From Geminicoccaceae bacterium (GTDB lineage: Bacteria; Pseudomonadota; Alphaproteobacteria; Geminicoccales; Geminicoccaceae): a stretch of 64,000 nucleotides of DNA. The notes under the pieces were generated by a model. The model did not search any database, was not told the origin of the DNA, and worked only from the letters and a program-made list of their open reading frames with translations. Positions 50,878-63,552 of the stretch are shown here, one piece after another. The stretch is taken from assembly GCA_025062095.1 (NCBI GenBank), contig JANXAZ010000002.1, forward strand, positions 1 to 64,000. Direction: 5' to 3'. A program made the position numbers and the translations under genes. Position 1 is the first letter of the stretch, and each line of letters begins with the position of its first letter.

Positions 50878-52665
50878 TCAGGCCGTGCCGTAGAGCTGTT
50901 CGAGCACCGCCGCGTGACGCTCAAGGATGCGGCCGCGACGCAGTTTGAGCGTGGGGGTGAGAAGTCCGTTCTCGACCGTGAAGGGCTCGCTCAGGATCTC
51001 GACCCGCCTGATCCGCTCGATCGCCGAGAGCCGCGCGTTCGCCCGCGCCACGGCCGCCTCCACCGCGCGGCGCAGCTCGTCGTCGCGGGCGAGTTCGGGG
51101 CTGCCCAGGGGCACGCCGCGGCGCGTCGCGGCGGCCTCGAGGAGCTCCTTGGAGGGCACGACGAGCGCCACGAGATGCGGCCGGGCGTCGCCGAAGACGA
51201 CCGCTTGGGCGATCTCCGGCTCGAGCAGGAGCACGCCTTCCACTTTCTGCGGTGCCACGTTGTCCCCGCCCGAGAGCACGATGATGTCCTTCTTGCGGTC
51301 GGTGATCGTGAGGTAGCCGTCTTCGTCGAAGGTGCCGACGTCGCCGGTGTACAGCCACCCGTCGCGCAGGACGGCGGCGGTCGCCTCGGGATCCTTGAAA
51401 TATCCTTTCATGACCAGCTTGCCGCGGACGAGGATCTCCCCGTCCTCGGCGATGCGCACCTCGACCCCGTCCAGAGGCGGGCCCACGGTTTCGATCTTCA
51501 CCCGCCGCGGGCGATTGGCGCTGATCACGGGTCCGGCTTCGGTCTGCCCGTAGCCCTGCAAGAGCGGCACGCCGAGCGCCAGGAAGAAGCGACCGACCTC
51601 GGGGTTCAAGGGAGCCCCGCCCGAGACCATGGCCTTGAGCCGACCGCCGAAGCGCGCGCGGATCTCGGCGCGCACGAGCCGCTCGAGCAGCGCATCGAAC
51701 GCGGCGCGGGCGGGATCGAGACGACCGCCCTGCGCGAGCCGGCGCAGCCCGAGGGCGAGAGCGGCGCGGAACAGCCGCGCCCGGATCCCGCCGCGGCGTT
51801 CGACCGCCGCGAGGATCCGTTGGCGCATGAGGTCGAGAAGGCGCGGCACGCAGGTGAAAATCGTCGGACGCGCCTCGAGGAGATCGCTCGCCACCCGCTC
51901 GACCCCGTCGGCGTACCAGATCTCGGCACCGATCGCGATCGGCAAGAACTGGCCCACGGTGTGCTCGTAGGCGTGGCTCAAGGGCAAGACGGAAAGAAAC
52001 GCGTCGTCGCCGACGCCGACCTCCTCGAGCAGGCTCCAGACGCCTTCGATGTTCGCCAAGATGCTGCGATGGGGCAGCATCACTCCTTTCGGCCGCCCGC
52101 CGGTGCCCGAGGTGTAGATGAAACAGGCGATATCTTCCGGACCCGCGCGCGCTCCGCCCAGTTCGGCCGTCTCCTCGGCCCCGCGCGCGAGCGCCGAGCG
52201 CCAGTCGAGGAGCCGGGTCTCGGCCGGGACCGCGGGCGGCTCTTCGAGAGCGATCACGAGGGCGGGCGCGGGCGCTCGCCCCAACGCGCGCGCGAGGCGC
52301 TGCGGGGAGGCTCCTCCGCCGACCACCACGGCGCGCGCCTCGCAGTGTGCGAGCACGTAGGCGAGATCCTCGGCCGTCCAGGTCGTATAGGCGGGTGCGG
52401 TGACGGCGCCGAGCGCGAGGCAGGCGAGATCGGCGATGCACCATTCCGGGCGGTTCTCGGCGACGATCACCACCCGATCCCCCGGGCCGACCCCGTGAGC
52501 GCGAAGGCAGCGCGCGAGGGCGCGGGCTTCTCGGGCGACCTCGGTCCAGGAGCGCGCCCGCCAGCTGCCGTTCTCGCGCCGGTACAAAAAGGGCCGATCT
52601 CCGGCGCGCGCCGCCACCCGCTCGAACATCACCCACAGGTTGGTGCCGAGATCGGGCGCTGCCAC
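50878..52665 (-). CDS. Long-chain acyl-CoA synthetase (AMP-dependent ligase)
   Basis: 595-residue ANL enzyme of the long-chain FadD15/FACL branch. It has CFIYTSGTGGRPKGVMLPHRS (AMP motif), the LPLSHAYEH segment, LQGYGQTEAGPV, YTGDVGTFDEDGYLTITDRKKDIIVLSGGDNVAP and a final conserved region. The DRKKD and GDNVAP motifs are typical of eukaryote-like long-chain ligases. The C-terminal lysine lies near ENGLLTPTLKLRR, as in that branch. GTG start at 52665 with GGGGAGG upstream. It diverges from the M3 peptidase across 83 bp. Confidence 0.92.
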   Translation of the reverse strand: MAAPDLGTNLWVMFERVAARAGDRPFLYRRENGSWRARSWTEVAREARALARCLRAHGVGPGDRVVIVAENRPEWCIADLACLALGAVTAPAYTTWTAEDLAYVLAHCEARAVVVGGGASPQRLARALGRAPAPALVIALEEPPAVPAETRLLDWRSALARGAEETAELGGARAGPEDIACFIYTSGTGGRPKGVMLPHRSILANIEGVWSLLEEVGVGDDAFLSVLPLSHAYEHTVGQFLPIAIGAEIWYADGVERVASDLLEARPTIFTCVPRLLDLMRQRILAAVERRGGIRARLFRAALALGLRRLAQGGRLDPARAAFDALLERLVRAEIRARFGGRLKAMVSGGAPLNPEVGRFFLALGVPLLQGYGQTEAGPVISANRPRRVKIETVGPPLDGVEVRIAEDGEILVRGKLVMKGYFKDPEATAAVLRDGWLYTGDVGTFDEDGYLTITDRKKDIIVLSGGDNVAPQKVEGVLLLEPEIAQAVVFGDARPHLVALVVPSKELLEAAATRRGVPLGSPELARDDELRRAVEAAVARANARLSAIERIRRVEILSEPFTVENGLLTPTLKLRRGRILERHAAVLEQLYGTA

Positions 52666-52748
52666 CTTCGGTCCTCCCCGCTTCCCGCCTGGATCGCGAC
52701 CGCCGCGGCCATATATGAGCCGGTGTTCGAAGCCGGGAGTCCCGCACG

Positions 52749-54578
52749 ATGAGCGCGACCGCCGACGTCTCGATCGCGAGCGGCCTCGAGAGCCGGCCTC
52801 CCGCTCCGCGCTGGGACCTCTCCGACCTGTTCTCGGGGCCGCGGGACCCGCGCATCCGAGCCCTGCTCGAGGAAGCCTCCGCCGAGGCCGCGCGGCTCGA
52901 AGAGAACTTCAAAGGGCGGCTTTCGAGCCTGTCCGGCACCGAGCTGGGAGCGCTCCTGCGCACGTACGAAGCGCTCGAGGAGCGGCTCGCGCGGGTTTCG
53001 AGCTACGCCTCGCTGTTGTTCGCCGCCGATCGCGAGGATCCCGAGATCGGGCGCTTCTACCAGGACGTCGAGGAACGGGTGAACGCGATCGAGACCCGAC
53101 TCCTGTTCGTCACCCTGGAGCTCAACAAGCTCGAGGACGCCGAGCTCGAAGCGAAGCTCTCGGAGAGCGCCGAGTTCGCCCGCTATCGTCCGTGGATCCG
53201 CAATCTGCGCGCCTTTCGACCGCATCAGCTGTCCGACGAGGTCGAGCGGCTGTTGCACGAGAAACAGATCACCGGTCGCACCGCCTGGGTCCGCCTGTTC
53301 GACGAGACGATGGCGGCGCTGCGCTTCCCGGTGCGCGGCCGCGATCTCAGCGCCCAAGAAGCCTTCGATCTGTTGCAGGCGAAAGACCGCGAGCTGCGCG
53401 AGGCCGCCGCCACCGCGATCGGGACGGTGCTCGGCGCGAACATCAAGCTCTTCGCGCGCATCACCAACACCCTCGCCAAGGACAAGCAGATCGAAGACGA
53501 ATGGCGGAAGTTCCCACGGCCGATCAGCGCCCGCAACCTGGCCAACCAGGTCGAAGACGAAGTCGTCGACGCGCTGATCGCCGCCGTGCGCGACGCCTAC
53601 CCGCGCATCTCGCACCGATATTACGCCTTGAAAGCGCGTTGGCTCGGGCTGGACAAGCTACAGTACTGGGACCGCAACGCCCCGCTGCCTGAGGACGACG
53701 ACCGGCGGCGGCCCTGGAGCGAGGCCAAGGCCGTCGTGCTCGACGCCTACCGCCGCTTCTCCCCGCGCCTTTGCGCGATCGTCGAGCGGTTCTTCGAGCG
53801 GCCGTGGATCGACGCCGAGGTCCGACCGAACAAGGACAGCGGCGCCTTCTGCCATCCCACCGTGCCCTCCCTGCATCCTTACGTGCTCATGAATTATCAG
53901 GGCAAGACGCGCGACGTCTTGACCCTCGCCCACGAGCTAGGCCACGGCGTCCATCAGATCCTCGCCGCCGAGCAGGGCTATCTCTTGTCCGCGACCCCTC
54001 TGACCTTCGCCGAGACCGCTTCGGTGTTCGGCGAACAGCTCACCTTCGAGGCGCTGTTGGACCGCGAGCGCGATCCCGCCCGCCGGCGGGTGCTCCTGGC
54101 CGCCAAGATCGAGGACAAGATCAACACGGTGGTGCGCCAGATCGCCTTCTGCGAGTTCGAGACCATCCTGCACGAACGGCGCAAGCAGGGCGAGCTCACT
54201 CCCGACGAGATCGGTGCCATCTGGCTGGACGTGCAGAGCAGGAGCCTGGGACCCGCGTTCGAATTCCGCGAAGATTACAGAGTGTATTGGTCGTATATTC
54301 CACACTTCGTGCATGTCCCGTTCTATGTTTATGCTTATGCGTTCGGAGATTGTCTGGTCAATTCGCTCTACGCGGTCTACGAGCAGCGACCCGAGGGCTT
54401 CGAAGCCGCCTACGTCGAGCTCCTGCGCGCCGGGGGCACCCTGCGCCACCGCGAGCTTCTCGCGCCTTTCGGGTTGGATGCGAGCGATCCCGGCTTCTGG
54501 GCCAAGGGCCTCGGCTTGATCGAGCGTCTCGTCGACCGGCTCGAAGCGGAAATGCCGGTCGGCGCGCGGGGGAGCTGA
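52749..54578 (+). CDS. pepF: M3 family oligoendopeptidase (PepF-like)
   Basis: Zinc oligopeptidase of 609 residues that degrades peptides in the cytoplasm. The metal site is H395-E396-L-G-H399 (LAHELGHGVHQ), with a third ligand in the downstream TFAETASVFGE helix (about residue 422). The PepF-type N-terminus (RWDLSDLFSG) and the C-terminal helix-rich part are complete. No signal peptide. Near residues 505-535 the codons turn A/T-ending (FVHVPFYVYAYAFG), unlike the rest of the gene. Its stop shares one base with the ABC1 kinase start. Confidence 0.93.
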   Translation: MSATADVSIASGLESRPPAPRWDLSDLFSGPRDPRIRALLEEASAEAARLEENFKGRLSSLSGTELGALLRTYEALEERLARVSSYASLLFAADREDPEIGRFYQDVEERVNAIETRLLFVTLELNKLEDAELEAKLSESAEFARYRPWIRNLRAFRPHQLSDEVERLLHEKQITGRTAWVRLFDETMAALRFPVRGRDLSAQEAFDLLQAKDRELREAAATAIGTVLGANIKLFARITNTLAKDKQIEDEWRKFPRPISARNLANQVEDEVVDALIAAVRDAYPRISHRYYALKARWLGLDKLQYWDRNAPLPEDDDRRRPWSEAKAVVLDAYRRFSPRLCAIVERFFERPWIDAEVRPNKDSGAFCHPTVPSLHPYVLMNYQGKTRDVLTLAHELGHGVHQILAAEQGYLLSATPLTFAETASVFGEQLTFEALLDRERDPARRRVLLAAKIEDKINTVVRQIAFCEFETILHERRKQGELTPDEIGAIWLDVQSRSLGPAFEFREDYRVYWSYIPHFVHVPFYVYAYAFGDCLVNSLYAVYEQRPEGFEAAYVELLRAGGTLRHRELLAPFGLDASDPGFWAKGLGLIERLVDRLEAEMPVGARGS

Positions 54579-55939
54579 TGGCCGCGCCTTCCCATCGCAG
54601 CGAGAACAGCCTGAGCGGGCGGATCCGCCGTTACGCGCAGGTGAGCACGACGGTCGCGGGGCAGGCCGCGAAACTCGCCGGCGCGAGCCTCCTGGGCGGC
54701 CTCGACCGGGGCACCCACGCGGCCGAACTCAAGGCGGCCCTGGGCGGGCTCAAGGGTCCTCTCATGAAGGTCGCCCAGATGATGGCGACCATTCCCGATG
54801 CGCTCCCGGCCGAATACGCTGCCGAGCTCGCCCAGCTGCAGGCCAACGCCCCGCCCATGGGACGTCCTTTCGTCCGCCGCCGCATGGCGGCCGAGCTCGG
54901 TCCGGACTGGGAGCGACATTTCGCCGACTTCCCGCTCGAGGCAGCGGCCGCCGCCTCCTTGGGCCAAGTCCACCGCGCGCGTCTGCACGACGGCCGCGAG
55001 GTCGCCTGCAAGCTCCAGTACCCGGAAATCGAGGCCGCGGTCGAAGCGGACCTCGCCCAACTGCGGCTCGTGCTCTCGATCTGGCGGCGCATCGATTCGG
55101 CGATCGACACCACCCGCATCTACGAAGAGATCTCCGCGCGTCTGCGCGAGGAGCTCGACTATTCGCTCGAAGCCAGACACATGCGCCTTTACGGTCTCAT
55201 GCTGGCTTCCGAGCCGCGGGTGCACGTCCCCGAGCCGATCCTCGAGCTCTCGACCCGGCGACTCCTGACCATGAGCTGGCTCGAGGGCCGGCCTCTTCTC
55301 GAGTTCCGCAGAGCCGATCAAGCGAGCCGGGACCGCCTCGCGCTCGCTCTCTTCCGCGCCTGGTACGTACCTTTCTATCGGTTCGGTGTCATCCACGGCG
55401 ATCCGCACCTCGGCAACTACACGGTGCGGCCGGATCTTTCGATCAACCTTTTGGATTTCGGCTGCATTCGCATCTTCCCGGCCCGCTTCGTCAAAGGGGT
55501 GATCGATCTGTACTGGGCGCTCCTGCGCGACGACCGCGATCTCGCGGTCCAGGCTTACGAGAGCTGGGGCTTCGCCGGTCTCACGAACGAGCTCGTGGAC
55601 ATCCTCAACGAATGGGCGCGGTTCCTCTACGAACCGCTCATGGAAGACCGCGTGCGCCGGATCAGCGAAACCAACGCCGGGGAGGCGGGACGGCGGGTCG
55701 TCGAGCGGGTCCACCGCCGCCTGCGCGAGGCGGGCGGGGTCACGGTCCCGCGCGAGTTCGTGTTCATGGACCGAGCGGCGATCGGTCTCGGCTCGGTGTT
55801 CCTCCACCTCGGCGCCGAGCTCAACTGGCACCGACTGTTCGGCGCGCTGATCGAGGATTTCGCACCGGAAGAGGTGGCGGCGCGCCAGGCCCGCGCTCTC
55901 GCCGAAGTCGGGCTCTCGAGCCGCGACGCGACCGGCTAG
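54578..55939 (+). CDS. ABC1/AarF (UbiB-like) atypical kinase
   Basis: 453-residue member of the ABC1/ADCK/UbiB family, atypical kinases or ATPases linked to ubiquinone synthesis and lipid homeostasis. The N-terminal signature reads LKGPLMK64-V-A-Q67 rather than the usual K-x-G-Q; the Ala-rich loop is AAAAASLGQVHRA. The kinase core has CKLQYPEIEAAV, FGVIHGDPHLGNY (catalytic loop) and NLLDFGCI (DFG). It is coupled to the pepF gene by a TGATG overlap. Which ABC1 subfamily and substrate cannot be told from sequence. Confidence 0.9.
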   Translation: MAAPSHRSENSLSGRIRRYAQVSTTVAGQAAKLAGASLLGGLDRGTHAAELKAALGGLKGPLMKVAQMMATIPDALPAEYAAELAQLQANAPPMGRPFVRRRMAAELGPDWERHFADFPLEAAAAASLGQVHRARLHDGREVACKLQYPEIEAAVEADLAQLRLVLSIWRRIDSAIDTTRIYEEISARLREELDYSLEARHMRLYGLMLASEPRVHVPEPILELSTRRLLTMSWLEGRPLLEFRRADQASRDRLALALFRAWYVPFYRFGVIHGDPHLGNYTVRPDLSINLLDFGCIRIFPARFVKGVIDLYWALLRDDRDLAVQAYESWGFAGLTNELVDILNEWARFLYEPLMEDRVRRISETNAGEAGRRVVERVHRRLREAGGVTVPREFVFMDRAAIGLGSVFLHLGAELNWHRLFGALIEDFAPEEVAARQARALAEVGLSSRDATG

Positions 55940-55947
55940 CCCCGGTT

Positions 55948-56730
55948 TCACGCGCTCGACGGGGGCGCGACGAACGGCCGGATCCGCACGCCCGCCCGCT
56001 CGAGCGCGGTGCGCACGGCGCGGGCCATCGCCACCGCCTTCGGATTGTCGCCGTGCACGCAGATGGTGTCGATCCGCACCGGGATCTTCTTGCCCGAAGC
56101 GCTCGTGACCGCGCCTTCCTCGAGCATGCGCACGACCCGCCGCGCGGCCTCCTCGGGGTCGTGCAACACCGCCCCCGGGTGCTTGCGCGAGACGAGCATG
56201 CCGCGGTCGTCGTAGGCGCGATCGGCGAAGACCTCGCGCGCGACCTCGAGCCCCTTGCGCTCGCCCGCCCGCTCGAGCGCGCTGCCCGGCATCGCCACGA
56301 GCACGAGCTCGCGCCCGCACAGACGCGTCGCTTCCGCCACCGCCTCGGCGAGCCCCTCGTCCTCGGCCGCCATGTTGCCGAGCGCGCCGTGCGGCTTCAC
56401 GTGCGTCACTCGGTGACCCACGGCCGCAGCGATCGCCTGCAGGGCTCCGATCTGGTACACGCAGTGCTTCACGATGTCCTCGGGCCGCTCGCCCAGGATC
56501 GGCCGCCGTCCGAAGCCCCAGAGATCGAGAAAGGAGGGATGAGCGCCGATCGCCACACCCCGCTCTTTCGCGCGCGCGCAGCTGCGCCACATCACGAGGG
56601 GATCGCCGGCGTGGAACCCGCACGCGAGATTGGCCGAGCTCACGATGTCGAGCATCGCCTCGTCGTCGCCCATGTTCCAGGCCCCGAAGCTCTCGCCGAG
56701 ATCACTGTTGAGGTCGACCGTGGTCTGCAT
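55948..56730 (-). CDS. pxpA: 5-oxoprolinase subunit A (LamB/YcsF)
   Basis: Component of bacterial 5-oxoprolinase, which with PxpB and PxpC hydrolyses 5-oxoproline to glutamate using ATP. Length is 260 residues. LamB/YcsF motifs are VDLNSDLGESFGAW at the start, ANLACGFHAGDP, IGAHPSFLD, HVKPHGALGNMA and CVHGDNPKAV. The ATG at 56730 opens the first conserved strand. It faces pxpBC across 96 bp as a divergent pair rather than the usual colinear pxpABC order. Confidence 0.93.
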   Translation of the reverse strand: MQTTVDLNSDLGESFGAWNMGDDEAMLDIVSSANLACGFHAGDPLVMWRSCARAKERGVAIGAHPSFLDLWGFGRRPILGERPEDIVKHCVYQIGALQAIAAAVGHRVTHVKPHGALGNMAAEDEGLAEAVAEATRLCGRELVLVAMPGSALERAGERKGLEVAREVFADRAYDDRGMLVSRKHPGAVLHDPEEAARRVVRMLEEGAVTSASGKKIPVRIDTICVHGDNPKAVAMARAVRTALERAGVRIRPFVAPPSSA

Positions 56731-56826
56731 CGTCCCCTCCTCCGCGCTCCGGTGCCGCGAGCCTAGAGTTCGCGCACGCCTCGGCAAGCGCTCGCCCGGA
56801 GCCTCTTCCTCGACCCGTCCGCGGCC

Positions 56827-57567
56827 GTGACCGACTTCCCGAACGCCACTTTGCGCGCGCGCGTGGTCCCGGTGGGCGACAGCGCGATCCTCGTCGAGTT
56901 CGGGGAAACCATCGACCCGGCGATCAACGCTGCCGTGCTCGCGCTCGATGCCCGCATTCGGGCCATGGCGCTCGAAGGGGTGGTCGAGCTCGTCCCCACC
57001 TATCGCTCGCTTCTCGTCCACTACGATCCCGAGAAGATCGACGGCGCTGCGCTTCTCGCGCGTCTTGCGAGCCTCGACCTCGACCATCCCGGCCCGCCCC
57101 CGGAAGGTCGCTCGTGGACGGTACCGGTCTGCTACGGCGGGGAGTTCGGCATCGACCTCGAGGCGGTGGCCGAACGCCACGGCCTGACCCCCGAAGAAGT
57201 CGTGCGCCTGCACACCGCTCCCGTCTATCGCGTCTACATGGTGGGTTTCGTTCCCGGCTTCACTTATTTGGGCGGCCTCGACCCGCGCCTTCATACGCCG
57301 CGGCTGCCCGAGCCCCGCCCGCGCACGCCCCCGGGCAGCGTCTCGATCGGGGGGATCCAGGCCGGGATCGCGTCCCTCGCCATTCCTTCGGGATGGCACC
57401 TCCTCGGGCGCACGCCCGTGCGCACCTTCGATCCCGAACGCGATCCGCCGCTTCTGTTGGCACCCGGCGACCGCGTGCGCTTCGTTCCGATCGACCCCGC
57501 GACCTTCGCCGAGCTCGATCGGCGCGCGGCCGCCCACGATCCCCTGATCGCCCCGGAGCCGTCGTGA
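56827..57567 (+). CDS. pxpB: 5-oxoprolinase subunit B (allophanate hydrolase subunit 1-like)
   Basis: 246-residue KipI/PxpB-family protein. Motifs are PVGDSAILVEFGETIDP at the start, LVPTYRSLLVHYDP, and VYMVGFVPGFTYLGGLDPRLH with ASLAIPSGWHLLGRTPVRTFDP at the end. It acts with PxpC; this pair resembles the two halves of allophanate hydrolase and KipI/KipA. GTG start. Its stop overlaps pxpC by four bases (GTGA). Confidence 0.92.
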   Translation: MTDFPNATLRARVVPVGDSAILVEFGETIDPAINAAVLALDARIRAMALEGVVELVPTYRSLLVHYDPEKIDGAALLARLASLDLDHPGPPPEGRSWTVPVCYGGEFGIDLEAVAERHGLTPEEVVRLHTAPVYRVYMVGFVPGFTYLGGLDPRLHTPRLPEPRPRTPPGSVSIGGIQAGIASLAIPSGWHLLGRTPVRTFDPERDPPLLLAPGDRVRFVPIDPATFAELDRRAAAHDPLIAPEPS

Positions 57568-58592
57568 GCGCGTCGTTCCTCCTGGTCGAGCATTGCGGGC
57601 CCTCGACCACGGTCCAGGACGCGGGGCGGTTCGGGTACCAGCGCTTCGGCGTCACCCCTGCGGGACCGATGGACCCCTGGTCCTTCCGCCTCGCCAACCG
57701 CATGCTCGGCAATCCGGAAGGCGAAGCCGGCCTCGAGGTCGGCCCCGGCGGTCTCGGGTTGGCGGTCGAAGCCCCACGCGTCCGGCTCGCTTTCGCCGGC
57801 GCCGAGCGTCCGTTGCGCATCGACGGTCGGCCCGTCCCGTGGTGGTCGGCCCTGAGCCTGCGCGCGGGCCAACGCGTCGAGCTCGGGCCGAGCGCGCGCG
57901 GGGTGTGGTCGTACGTCGCCATCCGCGGCGGGCTCGCGCTCGCTCCGGTGATGGGCAGTCGCGCCACTCATACGCTCACCGGTCTGGGCGGGCTCGAAGG
58001 ACGCGCCTTGCGCGCGGGCGACCGCTTGCCGCTCGCCGTGCCGGTCGCCGAGCCCGAGGAACCGGATCTCGTGCTCGCCGCACCGCCCCGCGGCGAGGAC
58101 GGACCGGTGCGCGTGCTCCTCGGCCCGCAGGAGGCCTGGTTCACGGAAGCGGGCATCGCCACCTTTCTCGGAGCCGAATGGCGGGTCTCGGCGAAGAGCG
58201 ACCGCATGGGCTATCGCCTGGACGGACCGCCCGTCGAGCACGCCCGTTCGCCCAACATCGTCTCCGACGGCATCGTCTTCGGTGCGGTCCAGGTGCCCGG
58301 GTCCGGCCGGCCGATCGTGTTGATGGCCGATCGTCAGAGCACCGGCGGCTATCCCAAGATCGCCACCGTCATCGGAGCCGACGTCGGTCGGCTGGCGCAA
58401 GTGCCGATCGGTGGTGCGGTCCGCTTCCGGCGGATCGCCTTCGACGAGGCGCGCGCCGCCCGCCGCGCGGCCCGCGCCGAGCTCGAGCGGGCGCTCGCGA
58501 GCCGTCGCCCGCTCGCCGCGAGCGGCCGGCTCGATCCCGACTTCCTGCTCTCCGTCAACCTCGTGAGCGGGGTCACCACGGGCGAGCCCTGA
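57564..58592 (+). CDS. pxpC: 5-oxoprolinase subunit C (allophanate hydrolase subunit 2-like)
   Basis: 342-residue KipA/PxpC-family carboxyltransferase-like protein. Motifs are GPSTTVQDAGRFGYQRFGVTPAGPMD, YVAIRGGLALAPVMGSRATHTLTGLGG, SDRMGYRLDGPP, and QSTGGYPKIATVIGADVGRLAQVP. The GTG start overlaps the pxpB stop. Its stop is 81 bp before the 2-hydroxyacid dehydrogenase, on the same strand, so pxpBC may be cotranscribed with the following transporter genes. Confidence 0.93.
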   Translation: MSASFLLVEHCGPSTTVQDAGRFGYQRFGVTPAGPMDPWSFRLANRMLGNPEGEAGLEVGPGGLGLAVEAPRVRLAFAGAERPLRIDGRPVPWWSALSLRAGQRVELGPSARGVWSYVAIRGGLALAPVMGSRATHTLTGLGGLEGRALRAGDRLPLAVPVAEPEEPDLVLAAPPRGEDGPVRVLLGPQEAWFTEAGIATFLGAEWRVSAKSDRMGYRLDGPPVEHARSPNIVSDGIVFGAVQVPGSGRPIVLMADRQSTGGYPKIATVIGADVGRLAQVPIGGAVRFRRIAFDEARAARRAARAELERALASRRPLAASGRLDPDFLLSVNLVSGVTTGEP

Positions 58593-58673
58593 TGGCCGCG
58601 GGGCTTCGGCACCGGCGTCTTGCCGGAGCCGGCACGGGCGGGCAAAGCTCGCGCCCCGCGGAGGAGGGAGGGC

Positions 58674-59603
58674 ATGAAGGTCGTCTTGCAGACCAGCTGG
58701 AACACGGCGGCGGCCTGGCGCGCCGAGCTCCTCCGCCAAGCGCCCGACCTCGAGGTCCGGCTGTGGCCGGAGATCGGCGATCCGGCGGAGATCGACGTCG
58801 TCTTGTGCTGGCAACCGCCCCCCGATCTCTTCGCCGGGATGCGCAATCTGCGCCTGATCCAGGTGCTGGGAGCCGGTGTCGACGGTCTGTTGCGCAAGGT
58901 CCCGGTGCTGCCGCCGGTGCCGATCGCGCGGCTGGTCGATCCGGTGATGGCGCAGCGGATGGCCGAATATTGCCTTTATGCGACGCTGCGTTTCCACCGT
59001 CGGTTCGACCTGTACGAGCGTCAACTCGCGCAAGCCCGCTGGGAGCGCCACCAACACCTCGATCCCCCGGAGATCGGTGTGGGCGTCATGGGTCTCGGGG
59101 CGATCGGGTCCACGGTCGTCCGCGTACTACGCCAGTTCGGGTACAACGTCGCCGCCTGGACGCGCTCGCCGCATCCGGATGCCGAGGTCCCGGTCTTCGT
59201 GGGCGGCGAGGGCCTGCCGGCGTTCCTCGCCCGCACCCGCATCCTCATCTGCGTGCTGCCGCTCACGCCCGAGACCGCGAGCATCCTCGACCGCCGCGTC
59301 TTCGAGCAGATGCCGCGCGGCAGCTATCTCGTGAACGCGGCGCGCGGCGAACATCTCGTCGTGCCCCACCTCCTTTCCGCCCTCGAGACCGGCCGGCTCG
59401 AGGGCGCGATGCTCGACGTCTTCGCCCACGAGCCTTTGCCCAAGAGCTCCCCGCTCTGGCGCCACCCGAAGATCTTCGTGACCCCGCACACCGCCGGCAT
59501 CACCAATCCGCGCACCGCCACGGCCGTCATCGTCGAACAACTGCGCCGCCTCGAGCGGGGCGAGCCGCTCCTGCACCTCGTCGATCCCGCGCGCGGCTAC
59601 TGA
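58674..59603 (+). CDS. D-isomer 2-hydroxyacid dehydrogenase (GhrA-like)
   Basis: 309-residue NAD(P)-dependent reductase of the glyoxylate/hydroxypyruvate reductase A branch. The nucleotide motif is GVGVMGLGAIGSTVVRVL, and active-site residues lie in LVNAARGEHLV (Arg), LDVFAHEPLP (Glu) and VTPHTAGITN (His). It lacks the Ser-His region of the classical D-LDH branch. The ATG has GGAGGGAGG close upstream. Its place between pxpBC and an ABC importer suggests it acts on a 2-oxo acid formed in the same pathway. Confidence 0.9.
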   Translation: MKVVLQTSWNTAAAWRAELLRQAPDLEVRLWPEIGDPAEIDVVLCWQPPPDLFAGMRNLRLIQVLGAGVDGLLRKVPVLPPVPIARLVDPVMAQRMAEYCLYATLRFHRRFDLYERQLAQARWERHQHLDPPEIGVGVMGLGAIGSTVVRVLRQFGYNVAAWTRSPHPDAEVPVFVGGEGLPAFLARTRILICVLPLTPETASILDRRVFEQMPRGSYLVNAARGEHLVVPHLLSALETGRLEGAMLDVFAHEPLPKSSPLWRHPKIFVTPHTAGITNPRTATAVIVEQLRRLERGEPLLHLVDPARGY

Positions 59604-59612
59604 GGGCGGACC

Positions 59613-60446
59613 GTGCAGGGGGACCAGCGCGCGCACGCCGCCGTCCGGCTCGAAGGGGTGTCGATCACCTACCGCCTCCCCGACGGCCGCCGCTACCCGG
59701 CGGTGTCGGCGACCGACCTCGCCGTCGCCTCGGGAGAGTTCGTGGCCCTCGTGGGTCCCACGGGTTGCGGCAAATCCACCCTTCTCAACGTGGTCGCCGG
59801 GCTCGTGGCGCCGAGTACCGGTCGGGTCCTGATCGACGGCGACCCGCTTTCCGGGATCAACCACCGTGCCGGCTATCTGTTCCAGCAGGAAGCGCTGTTC
59901 CCCTGGAAGACGGCGCTCGCCAACGTCGCCTTGGGCCTCGAGGTCAAAGGCGTGCCGCGCGGCGAAGCCCGGGCGAAGGCCGAACGATGGCTGGCACGGG
60001 TGGGTCTGGGGGCCTTCGCCGACCGCTATCCGCACCAGCTCTCGGGCGGTCAGAAAAAGCGCGTCGGCCTGGCGCAAGTCCTCGCGCGCGAACCCTCGAT
60101 CCTGCTCATGGACGAGCCCTTCGGGCCCCTGGACGCGCAGACCCGGGCGATCATGGGCGAGCTCTTGCTCGAGCTGTGGAGCGCGGAAAAAAAGGCCGTG
60201 CTCTTCGTCACCCACGATCTCGAGGAGGCGATCGCCCTCGCCGATCGCGTGCTCATCATGTCGGCCGGGCCCGAGGCGCGCATCATCGGCGATCACCGGG
60301 TGCCCATCGCGCGCCCGCGCGACATCCACGAGGTCCGCCTGACCCCGGCCTTCCTCGAGATCCATCGCGCGCTCTGGCACGAGCTGCGCGCCGAAGTCCT
60401 CAAAGGCTACGCCCGCAGCGAAGGAACCACGGATCGCCTACCGTGA
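59613..60446 (+). CDS. ABC importer ATPase (nitrate/sulfonate/taurine type)
   Basis: 277-residue ATPase with Walker A GPTGCGKST, Q-loop YLFQQEALFPWKT, signature LSGGQKKR, Walker B LLMDEPFGPLD and VTHDLEEAI. The FPWKT and EPFGPLD segments are typical of the SsuB/TauB/NrtD family. The GTG start lies 9 bp after the dehydrogenase stop. Its end overlaps the permease start by four bases. The transporter has the usual ATPase, permease, binding-protein set. Confidence 0.92.
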   Translation: MQGDQRAHAAVRLEGVSITYRLPDGRRYPAVSATDLAVASGEFVALVGPTGCGKSTLLNVVAGLVAPSTGRVLIDGDPLSGINHRAGYLFQQEALFPWKTALANVALGLEVKGVPRGEARAKAERWLARVGLGAFADRYPHQLSGGQKKRVGLAQVLAREPSILLMDEPFGPLDAQTRAIMGELLLELWSAEKKAVLFVTHDLEEAIALADRVLIMSAGPEARIIGDHRVPIARPRDIHEVRLTPAFLEIHRALWHELRAEVLKGYARSEGTTDRLP

Positions 60447-61225
60447 GAGCCCGTGCGACGCTTCTTTTCTGGCAGGTCCTCGTATTCGTCCTGTTCCTCG
60501 CCGGTTGGCACTTCGGAACGGCGACGGGCGTGCTCGATCCTTTCTTCTTCTCGCGCCCGTTGGATGTCTTGGAGCGCACCTGGCGCGACTTCGCGTCCGG
60601 GGTCATCTGGCGCCATTTGTGGATCACGCTCGTCGAAACGATCCTCGCCTTCGTGCTCGGCTCGATCGGCGGCGTCCTCGCCGGCTTCTGGCTCGCGCGC
60701 CGGGAGCTGCTCTCGGCGATCTTCCAGCCCTATCTCAAAGCGATCAACGCCATGCCGCGCGTGGTCTTGGCGCCCATCTTCGCCTTGTGGTTCGGGCTCG
60801 GCATCTGGTCCAAAGTCGCCTTGGGGGTCACCCTCGTCTTCTTCATCGTGTTCTTCGCGGTCTACCAGGGCGTGCGCGAAGTGAACCCGGTGCTCGTAGC
60901 GAACGCCCGCATGCTCGGGATGAACGAGCGCCAGATGTTGCGCCATCTCTACATGCCCGCGGCTCTGTCGTGGATGTTCGCGAGCCTGCACGCCGCGGTC
61001 GGCTTCGCCCTCGTGGGCGCGGTGGTGGGCGAATATCTGGGCTCCGCCGCCGGCCTCGGCTACCGCATCCAACAGGCGGAGGGCAGTTTCGATGTCACCG
61101 GCGTCTTTTCGGGCATGCTCGTGCTCGCGGTCTTCGTGCTCGTGATCGACGCGCTCGTGAGCTTCGTCGAACGGCGCTTGCTCGTCTGGAGACCGCAGGC
61201 CGCGGTCACCGGCATCGAAGCCTGA
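60443..61225 (+). CDS. ABC importer permease (SsuC/TauC family)
   Basis: 260-residue inner-membrane permease with about six helices and the EAA loop VLVANARMLGMNERQMLRHLYMP, placing it in the nitrate/sulfonate/bicarbonate permease family. VGEYLGSAAGLGY near the C-terminal end is a family mark. The GTG start overlaps the ATPase stop. It works with the neighbouring ATPase and NMT1-type binding protein. Confidence 0.92.
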   Translation: MRARATLLFWQVLVFVLFLAGWHFGTATGVLDPFFFSRPLDVLERTWRDFASGVIWRHLWITLVETILAFVLGSIGGVLAGFWLARRELLSAIFQPYLKAINAMPRVVLAPIFALWFGLGIWSKVALGVTLVFFIVFFAVYQGVREVNPVLVANARMLGMNERQMLRHLYMPAALSWMFASLHAAVGFALVGAVVGEYLGSAAGLGYRIQQAEGSFDVTGVFSGMLVLAVFVLVIDALVSFVERRLLVWRPQAAVTGIEA

Positions 61226-61306
61226 AGCCGACGCGGAGGCTTGCCGACCGACAAGGCAACCGCCAAGCTCGGAAGCGAGAGTGCGAGCGAGGGGGGAGGT
61301 TCGACC

Positions 61307-62332
61307 ATGCGCCGACGGACGGTTCTCGCGAGCGGATCGAGCGCGGCCGCGTTGCTTTTCGTCGACCCCGTGCCGCTTTTCGCACGCAATCCCGAGAAGA
61401 GCCGGGTGGTTCTCGGCGTGGGCGGCAAATCGCTTCTCTATTATCTGCCGCTCACCGTCGCCGAGCGCAAAGGTTTCTTCACCGAGCGCGGCCTCGAGGT
61501 GGAGATCAACGACTTCGGCGGCGGTGCGAAGGCCCTGCAAGCGCTCGTCGGCGGCTCGGTCGACGTGGTCACCGGCGCGTACGAGCACACGATCCGCATG
61601 CAGGCCAAGGGCCAGGACATCCGGGCCGTGGTCGAGCTCGGCCGGTTCCCGGGCATCGTCCTCGCGGTCAAGAAGACCCTCGCAGGCAAAGTCAGATCCG
61701 CCAAGGACCTCGAGGGCATGAAGGTGGGGGTCACCGCCCCGGGGAGCTCCACGAATTTCTTCGTCAACTATCTGTTGGCCAAGGAAGGCGTGGCCCCGGA
61801 CAAGGTGGCCTTCATCGGGGTGGGCGCCGGACCCACCGCCGTGGCGGCGATGAAGAAGGGAGAGATCGACGCGATCGCCAATCTCGATCCCGTCATCGCC
61901 AAGCTCGAGCAGGACGGCGACGTCTTCGTGCTCGCCGACAGTCGCACCGAAGAGGGCACGAAAGCGATCTTCGGCGGCTCCAACCCCGCCGCCGTGCTCT
62001 ACACCAAGGCCGAATTCATCGAGAAGAACCCGAACACGGTCCAAGCTCTCGTCGAGGCGTTCCTCGCCGCGCTCCGTTGGATCGACAAAGCGACCCCGGA
62101 AGAGATCGCCGCGGCCGTGCCCGAAGAATACTATCTCGGCGACAAGCAGCTCTATCTCGCCGCCGTTGCCAAATCCAAACCGATGTATTCGCGCACAGGT
62201 ATCGTGCCGCCCGAAGGCATGCGCAACGCCCTCGAGATGCTGTTGCGATTCGACAAAGAGCTCGCCGGTGCCAAGATCGATCTGGCCAAGACCTTCGACG
62301 GCCGCTTCGTCGAGCGCGCGGCCAAGGGCTGA
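61307..62332 (+). CDS. ABC importer substrate-binding protein (NMT1/THI5-like)
   Basis: 341-residue exported binding protein. The N-terminus is a twin-arginine-like signal (MRRRTVLASGSSAAALLF). The mature part has the NMT1/SsuA-like layout: YYLPLTVAERKGFFTERGLEVEI, FGGGAKALQALVGGSVDVVTG, and LEGMKVGVTAPGSSTNFFVNYLL. Family ligands include sulfonates, nitrate, thiamine precursors and aromatic acids; this one cannot be assigned. ATG at 61307 has GGGGGGAGG upstream, chosen over a frame start at 61241. Confidence 0.9.
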   Translation: MRRRTVLASGSSAAALLFVDPVPLFARNPEKSRVVLGVGGKSLLYYLPLTVAERKGFFTERGLEVEINDFGGGAKALQALVGGSVDVVTGAYEHTIRMQAKGQDIRAVVELGRFPGIVLAVKKTLAGKVRSAKDLEGMKVGVTAPGSSTNFFVNYLLAKEGVAPDKVAFIGVGAGPTAVAAMKKGEIDAIANLDPVIAKLEQDGDVFVLADSRTEEGTKAIFGGSNPAAVLYTKAEFIEKNPNTVQALVEAFLAALRWIDKATPEEIAAAVPEEYYLGDKQLYLAAVAKSKPMYSRTGIVPPEGMRNALEMLLRFDKELAGAKIDLAKTFDGRFVERAAKG

Positions 62333-62394
62333 GCTCGTCAGCGCGGATCGCCGGTTCGCCAGCGCGAAGCGGCGGGAGGAGAAAGGCGCGGAAC

Positions 62395-63552
62395 ATGCGG
62401 CGGTTCGATCTCGTCTTGCGCGGCGGACGCGTGATCGATCCCGGCACCGGCCGAGACGAGATCGCGGATGTCGCCTTCCTCGACGGCAAGGTCGCGGCCG
62501 TCGGCGCGGAGGCCGCCGCCGGCTCCGGCGCGGTCGAACGGCGCGTCGACGGGTGTATCGTCACCCCCGGTCTCCTCGACTTCCACGCCCACGTCTATTG
62601 GGGCGGCACGTCCTTGGGCGTGGAGGCGGATGCGCTGTCGCGGCGGTCGGGAACGACGACCTGGGTCGACGCCGGCTCCGCCGGTCCCGGGAATTTCGCG
62701 GGCTTCCGCAAGCACGTCATCGAGCGATCCGAGACCCGCATCCTCGCTTTTCTCCACGTCTCCTTCGCCGGTATCTTCGCCTTCTCCGAGGACGTCATGG
62801 TCGGCGAATCGACCGATCTGCGGCTCCTCGTTCCGGAAGCCTGCGCCCGCGTCGCCCGCGAGCATTCGGACCTCGTCAAGGGCGTGAAGGTGCGGATCGG
62901 CGCCATCGCCTCGGGCACCAACGGCCTGGCGCCTCTTCATCTCGCGATCGAGGCGGCCGACCGCGCCGGTCTGCCGGTGATGTGCCACATCGATCGGCCT
63001 CCCCCGCGCTACGTCGAGGTGCTCGAGCTCCTGCGGCCCGGAGACGTGCTCACCCACTGTTTCAAGCCCTTCCCGAACGCACCGTGTTGGGCGGACGGCC
63101 GGGTCCGCGAGGAGGTGTGGAAAGCGCGCGAGAAAGGCGTGCTCTTCGATGTCGCCCACGGCAAAGGCTCGTTCTCCTTCGCCACCGCCCGCGCCATGCT
63201 CGCCGCCGGCTTCTGGCCGGACGTGATCAGTTCGGACGTGCACGCGCTCTGCGTCGACGGCCCGGCCTTCGACAATCTCGAGACGATGTCGAAGTTCTTG
63301 TGCCTGGGGATGCCCCTGACCGAGATCGTCCGTGCCGCCACCGCGACGCCGGCGCGCATCCTGGGTCGTCCCGACCTCGCCGATCTCTCCGTCGGCTCGA
63401 CCGGCGACGCCACCGTGCTGCGCATCGTCGAAGGAGAGCACCTCTTCCGCGACGTGCTCGGCGAGACGATGACCGGCGATCGGCGGTTCGTCCTCGACAG
63501 CGTCGTGCTCGCCGGCCGGCTGTGGCACGTCGCCGAGCCGGCGCGCACGTGA
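62395..63552 (+). CDS. Amidohydrolase/deacetylase-family metallohydrolase
   Basis: 385-residue TIM-barrel hydrolase of the dihydroorotase-like branch. Metal ligands are the HxH of LDFHAHVYWGG, a candidate carboxylated lysine in LVKGVKVRIGA, then histidines in VMCHIDRPP and VLTHCFKPF, and the aspartate in ISSDVHAL. This pattern matches the deacetylase/amidohydrolase subgroup (Atu3266/EF0837-like), which acts on N-acyl or O-acyl groups. Its location at the end of the importer genes suggests it acts on the imported compound. GGGAGGAG precedes the ATG. It converges with the tolC-like gene, 6 bp apart. Confidence 0.88.
   Translation: MRRFDLVLRGGRVIDPGTGRDEIADVAFLDGKVAAVGAEAAAGSGAVERRVDGCIVTPGLLDFHAHVYWGGTSLGVEADALSRRSGTTTWVDAGSAGPGNFAGFRKHVIERSETRILAFLHVSFAGIFAFSEDVMVGESTDLRLLVPEACARVAREHSDLVKGVKVRIGAIASGTNGLAPLHLAIEAADRAGLPVMCHIDRPPPRYVEVLELLRPGDVLTHCFKPFPNAPCWADGRVREEVWKAREKGVLFDVAHGKGSFSFATARAMLAAGFWPDVISSDVHALCVDGPAFDNLETMSKFLCLGMPLTEIVRAATATPARILGRPDLADLSVGSTGDATVLRIVEGEHLFRDVLGETMTGDRRFVLDSVVLAGRLWHVAEPART

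Follow-up and report, generated by a model that had tools for sequence, protein, structure and literature searches.

Neighbouring 5-oxoprolinase and COG3964 amidohydrolase genes in a Geminicoccaceae bacterium, better read as two modules than as one pathway

Do genes that lie together in a tight run also act on one compound? The question is raised by eight intact open reading frames at positions 55948-63552 of a 64,000-nucleotide stretch (the window) from a Geminicoccaceae MAG whose whole genome comprises 3.3 Mb in 143 contigs. A first-pass annotation had taken them for a catabolic module that handles a cyclic amide or an N-acyl hydroxy acid and ends in a 2-oxo or 2-hydroxy acid. Part of this stands, in that the genes are kept together and 5-oxoproline is a probable lactam substrate; a single operon and a single linear pathway are not borne out. 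Two adjacent modules describe the run better: pxpA with the divergent pxpBC on one side and a dehydrogenase, an importer and an amidohydrolase on the other.

All eight frames are open, and profile searches matched the families claimed for them. The gene for 5-oxoprolinase subunit A, pxpA (LamB/YcsF family; 55948..56730, minus strand; Pfam PF03746, E 7e-100; NF003814, 381 bits against a cut-off of 226), is divergent from the others, as first described. On the plus strand follow pxpB for subunit B (56827..57567; TIGR00370, 195 bits, cut-off 145.6), pxpC for subunit C (57564..58592), a GhrA-like D-2-hydroxyacid dehydrogenase gene (58674..59603), the ATPase and permease genes of an ABC importer (59613..60446 and 60443..61225), the gene for its NMT1-type periplasmic receptor (61307..62332) and a COG3964 amidohydrolase gene (62395..63552). 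From pxpB through the amidohydrolase the gaps measure -4, 81, 9, -4, 81 and 62 bases, with 4-base overlaps between pxpB and pxpC and between ATPase and permease; the GTG starts of the latter two genes are our choice. On the far side of pxpA (50878-55939), genes that by eye resemble those for an acyl-CoA synthetase, an oligoendopeptidase and an ABC1 kinase have homologues that also precede pxpA in five congeners, as far as the fetched stretch extends.

Gene-order conservation, set beforehand as a check on the grouping, was found in relatives. The order from divergent pxpA through pxpB, pxpC, dehydrogenase, ATPase, permease and receptor to the hydrolase is kept in all five of the congeners examined at 70-92% protein identity, with variation in the importer genes: in congener G001 all three are absent as a block, so that the dehydrogenase adjoins the hydrolase, and no receptor orthologue was found anywhere in that 95%-complete assembly. 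The enzymes also occur together in a second genus, where Marinimicrococcus flavescens has pxpA followed by dctP-dctQ-dctM-pxpB-pxpC-dehydrogenase and then genes for a second hydroxyacid dehydrogenase, an M20 hydrolase, a glycerol-1-phosphate-dehydrogenase-like protein and the COG3964 hydrolase. Because the order is held in five congeners, and because relatives retain the enzymes together while swapping or dropping the importer, the grouping is real and more than chance. In this second genus (L033, 3597-8612), and likewise at L178 (2523-7961), pxpBC has as neighbours a 2-hydroxyacid dehydrogenase of a second type and a hydrolase of the M20 hydantoinase/carbamoylase family; the theme of pxp genes, dehydrogenase and amidase recurs in two genera of the family with a different amidase.

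Grouping does not make the run an operon. The uninterrupted same-strand run that a single operon should show in relatives is broken in congener G004, where the 2.7 kb that follow pxpC up to the dehydrogenase are taken up by genes on the opposite strand, so pxpBC and the remaining genes are unlikely to form one transcript there. By eye, this insert (L032, 3743-6185) resembles an ATP-grasp/alpha-E protein pair. Moreover, the gaps before dehydrogenase and receptor carry a cis element of their own: CTTGCCG-N17-CAAAGC (58619..58648, plus strand) before the dehydrogenase, kept in six of six genomes of the genus, and CTTGCCG-N17-CAAGCT (61240..61269, plus strand) before the receptor gene, exact or one change off in four of the five congeners with that gene and degenerate in G005. 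Their consensus, CTTGYCG-N17-CAARSY, has four exact matches in the 3.3 Mb genome, two intergenic in these gaps and two inside called genes; since the pattern was derived from the two gaps, its location is no independent test, and the evidence lies in the sharing between gaps and the conservation among congeners. The pxpA-pxpB gap is without this shared element and has a different 3' half, in a promoter-like sequence that would serve pxpA (minus strand, 56760..56788, CTTGCCG-N15-CTAGGCT; its CAA and CTA columns are conserved in a six-congener alignment). The shared element may be a promoter, with CTTGCC as the -35 box, or an operator with CTTG/CAAG arms; a sigma70 scan, which says little in DNA this rich in GC, returned one site against 0.3 expected. 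Together with the missing importer of G001, these observations argue against the single operon.

The substrate of the first module can be approached through its relatives. PxpA, PxpB and PxpC are all present and intact in the window. PxpC passes the broad model TIGR00724 (293 bits, cut-off 230) and falls below the equivalog NF045499 (242 versus 500 bits), a model that appears narrow because four other alphaproteobacterial PxpC proteins, one of them TRAP-linked, likewise fail it (226-237 bits). The TRAP receptor encoded in the Marinimicrococcus cluster has 2PFZ as its best solved relative (E 3e-49), with 2PFY close behind; we take these structures to be DctP6 and DctP7 of Bordetella pertussis. 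On a plasmid of Thermus thermophilus, one run comprises an ABC importer orthologous to that of the window (63, 62 and 53% identity), a TRAP system, an MBL hydrolase and PxpA; the TRAP receptor there hits 2PFZ with E 1.5e-93. DctP6 and DctP7 have been crystallised with pyroglutamate (PMC5812351; PMC13274462). Given these pyroglutamate-type TRAP systems in Marinimicrococcus and Thermus, and a DctM homologue adjoining pxpBC at 6 of the 40 pxpC loci from Alphaproteobacteria, 5-oxoproline is most likely the substrate of PxpABC, by analogy, and the lactam of the first reading gains in plausibility. A pxpC search of plasmids gave no match at 1e-50. Second PxpC copies occur in four congeners and not in the window genome; in G001 (L181, 538-3754) a second, distant pxpC-like/pxpB-like pair lies beside an apparent biotin carboxylase and a BioY-like protein.

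The hydrolase at the far end had been called dihydroorotase-like, which holds as a superfamily label only. It passes the curated NF006689/PRK09237 cut-off (410 versus 371 bits) and scores far below every dihydroorotase model, and its closest solved relative, of moderate similarity (207 bits, E 4e-60), is 2OGJ (Atu3266). This protein is reported to hydrolyse acetyl-(R)-mandelate by preference. His64, His66, Lys165, His198, His221 and Asp281, which form the binuclear-metal site of the superfamily, show no variation among 20 relatives and have aligned counterparts in 2OGJ; Tyr68, equally invariant, replaces the HxHxR arginine of dihydroorotases. 2OGJ itself was deposited as a dihydroorotase, an incorrect annotation for a COG3964 member that has no HxHxR arginine (PMC12524618). 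The family score and the missing arginine together led us to reject dihydroorotase function for this enzyme. It keeps the HxH, Lys, His, His, Asp pattern of the COG3964/PRK09237 deacetylases, but has Tyr68 where 2OGJ has Trp81, and its substrate assignment is putative. COG3964 genes have varied neighbours, including dipeptide importers, RidA-like proteins and nitrilase-like hydrolases. At Rhizobiales loci (L081-L152), dipeptide-type ABC importers (26-41 loci), RidA-like proteins (16), nitrilase-like hydrolases (14), DSD1-like (11) and GGT-like proteins (7) were noted, named by eye except where scanned. An apparent hydrolase-oxidoreductase fusion at L040 is spurious: masked bases there were read as X.

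Between the pxp genes and the hydrolase lies the dehydrogenase (PF02826, E 5e-45), whose best PDB matches are GhrA glyoxylate/hydroxypyruvate reductases (3kbo, E 9e-72). Although under the GhrA equivalog cut-off (NF012013, 266 versus 403 bits), it shows their Arg, Glu, His catalytic pattern, and its fold family and catalytic residues suggest that it works like a GhrA-type enzyme. Unlike GhrA itself, it is a second, cluster-bound paralogue beside an ordinary GhrA copy: it is 63% identical to the Marinimicrococcus cluster copy and at most 52% to other GhrA proteins, and among 40 relatives the paralogue (at least 63% identity) occurs only in cluster-bearing genomes.

The importer consists of one contiguous set of ATPase (taurine/nitrate/sulfonate class; PF00005, E 2e-33; NF008421, 216 bits, below cut-off), permease (PF00528, E 7e-30) and NMT1-type receptor (PF13379, E 2e-29). 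The receptor's nearest solved homologue is 3qsl (E 1e-97), for which no paper naming the structure was found; literature searches for 3QSL, 8JE0 and 8WZY gave nothing useful. Importer orthologues are widespread, mostly far from pxp and COG3964 genes. Since their annotated neighbours include leuC-leuD-leuB, a CoA-transferase with HMG-CoA lyase, 4-oxalomesaconate tautomerase, and a CoA-transferase with citryl-CoA lyase, the cargo is suggested to be small di- or tricarboxylic acids (C5-C6), with no single ligand picked out. The importer-pxp association first proposed is strengthened by the Thermus run, which recurs in T. brockianus with PxpA not in view and in T. oshimai as its ABC part only. On the T. 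thermophilus JL-18 plasmid (L182, 4324-12133), cyclase-family and peroxidase-related genes accompany the two importer classes, the MBL hydrolase and the single 5-oxoprolinase subunit; no pxpB or pxpC was seen in the stretch read. At three alphaproteobacterial loci (L189, L190, L191) this ABC importer has pyridoxal-kinase-like and PhzF-like genes close by, both named by eye; resting on three loci only, the pyridoxal-kinase link was set aside.

How far, then, does the link between 5-oxoprolinase and hydrolase reach? In Bradyrhizobium (L104, L121), the COG3964 gene immediately follows pxpA-pxpB-pxpC and shares their strand, 31 bases separating pxpC from the hydrolase in L104, and at three further loci (L095, L096, L107) pxp genes lie within 10 kb of a COG3964 gene. 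A maximum-likelihood PxpC tree joins the window genus and Marinimicrococcus in one clade (99/95) and places Bradyrhizobium in another, which includes unlinked genes. As this tree forces at least two changes, the pxpABC-COG3964 linkage most likely arose twice, independently in Bradyrhizobium, which agrees with the proximity first noted. Among 289 alphaproteobacterial genomes, a close PxpC is present in 15 of the 28 that have a COG3964 gene and in 22 of the 261 that lack one (Fisher p 3e-8, uncorrected for phylogeny or genome size); in this even sample, pxpC and COG3964 are neighbours only in the window's genus.

These observations are best accommodated, tentatively and at slightly less than an even chance, by two modules that both feed C5-acid metabolism. 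In the first, PxpABC would convert 5-oxoproline to glutamate with ATP, a function established for the family elsewhere. In the second, apparently under its own repeated cis element, a small organic acid would enter through the NMT1-type system, the COG3964 hydrolase would then strip its acyl group, and the GhrA-like enzyme would oxidise the freed D-2-hydroxy acid (the acylated compound could also be a D-amino acid) to a 2-oxo acid. We propose that the modules stay together because both supply small carboxylic acids to glutamate/2-oxo-acid metabolism. The families, the kept order, the block loss in G001, the element before dehydrogenase and receptor, the TRAP swap in Marinimicrococcus, the Thermus run, the Bradyrhizobium operon, the cluster-bound paralogue and the C5-C6 acid gene neighbours point this way; the varied COG3964 neighbours, the restriction of pxpC-COG3964 adjacency to one genus in the 289-genome sample and the usually distant importer weigh against it. 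Were the neighbours instead metabolically uncoupled, a standard 5-oxoprolinase beside an unrelated organic-acid module held in place by slow rearrangement in one family, the shared order in the single PxpC clade could be inherited, and the lack of physical linkage in most genomes with both genes would be expected. This is unlikely, however, given the second, independent linkage in Bradyrhizobium, the orthologous importer with PxpA in another phylum and the persistence of the enzymes while the importer differs between genera.

A dedicated pathway would take up one cyclic or acylated compound and pass it from the COG3964 enzyme, which removes the acyl group, to PxpABC for ring opening and finally to the dehydrogenase; this reading could draw on the pxpABC-dehydrogenase-hydrolase set of two genera with different importers, on the short-gapped Bradyrhizobium operon and on the co-occurrence in Alphaproteobacteria. 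That operon, however, is without the dehydrogenase, the cis elements are separate, pxpBC is split off in G004, and genome size and phylogeny confound the co-occurrence, which leaves such a pathway rather improbable; passage of one compound through all the enzymes is unsupported by the evidence found. It is very unlikely that PxpABC opens a different ring, such as that of a hydantoin or dihydropyrimidine, and leaves the N-carbamoyl or N-acyl product to the COG3964 or M20 enzyme for hydrolysis: an M20 gene does lie beside pxpBC in Marinimicrococcus and G018, but its N-carbamyl-L-glutamate amidohydrolase model scored below cut-off, the window cluster has no M20 gene and the Marinimicrococcus importer is nearest to pyroglutamate receptors. 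Beyond these, we give a low probability to one undescribed pathway in which the COG3964 deacylase, the dedicated GhrA paralogue and PxpABC would act on a C5 acid in conjugated or cyclised form, such as an acylated, lactam or lactone form related to 2-hydroxyglutarate or 5-oxoproline, taken up by NMT1-type ABC or pyroglutamate-type TRAP systems. The parts are known; their combination appears, as far as could be checked, to be new for Geminicoccaceae, and the mechanism is put forward from gene content.

To our knowledge, 5-oxoproline use by bacteria has been little studied, with uptake systems known for few species only, and the physiology of the COG3964 deacylase family is largely unknown. The locus supplies candidate ABC and TRAP importers for the former, and since COG3964 and 5-oxoprolinase genes are tied together in two lineages, the physiological substrate of COG3964 becomes testable. 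Like the pxpTABC locus of Corynebacterium glutamicum (PMC13274462) and loci of the ycsF-kipI-kipA type, the window combines pxpA, pxpB and pxpC with an uptake system; in contrast to pxpTABC, that system is an NMT1-type ABC importer rather than the NRAMP-like PxpT, no adjacent GntR regulator gene was seen, and a GhrA-like dehydrogenase and a COG3964 hydrolase are added. An importer beside pxpBC is also shared with the alphaproteobacterial TRAP DctPQM-pxpBC loci, which have Bordetella DctP6/DctP7-type receptors; the homologous Marinimicrococcus cluster carries such a DctPQM-type importer, whereas the window genus has the ABC importer at another position in the run.
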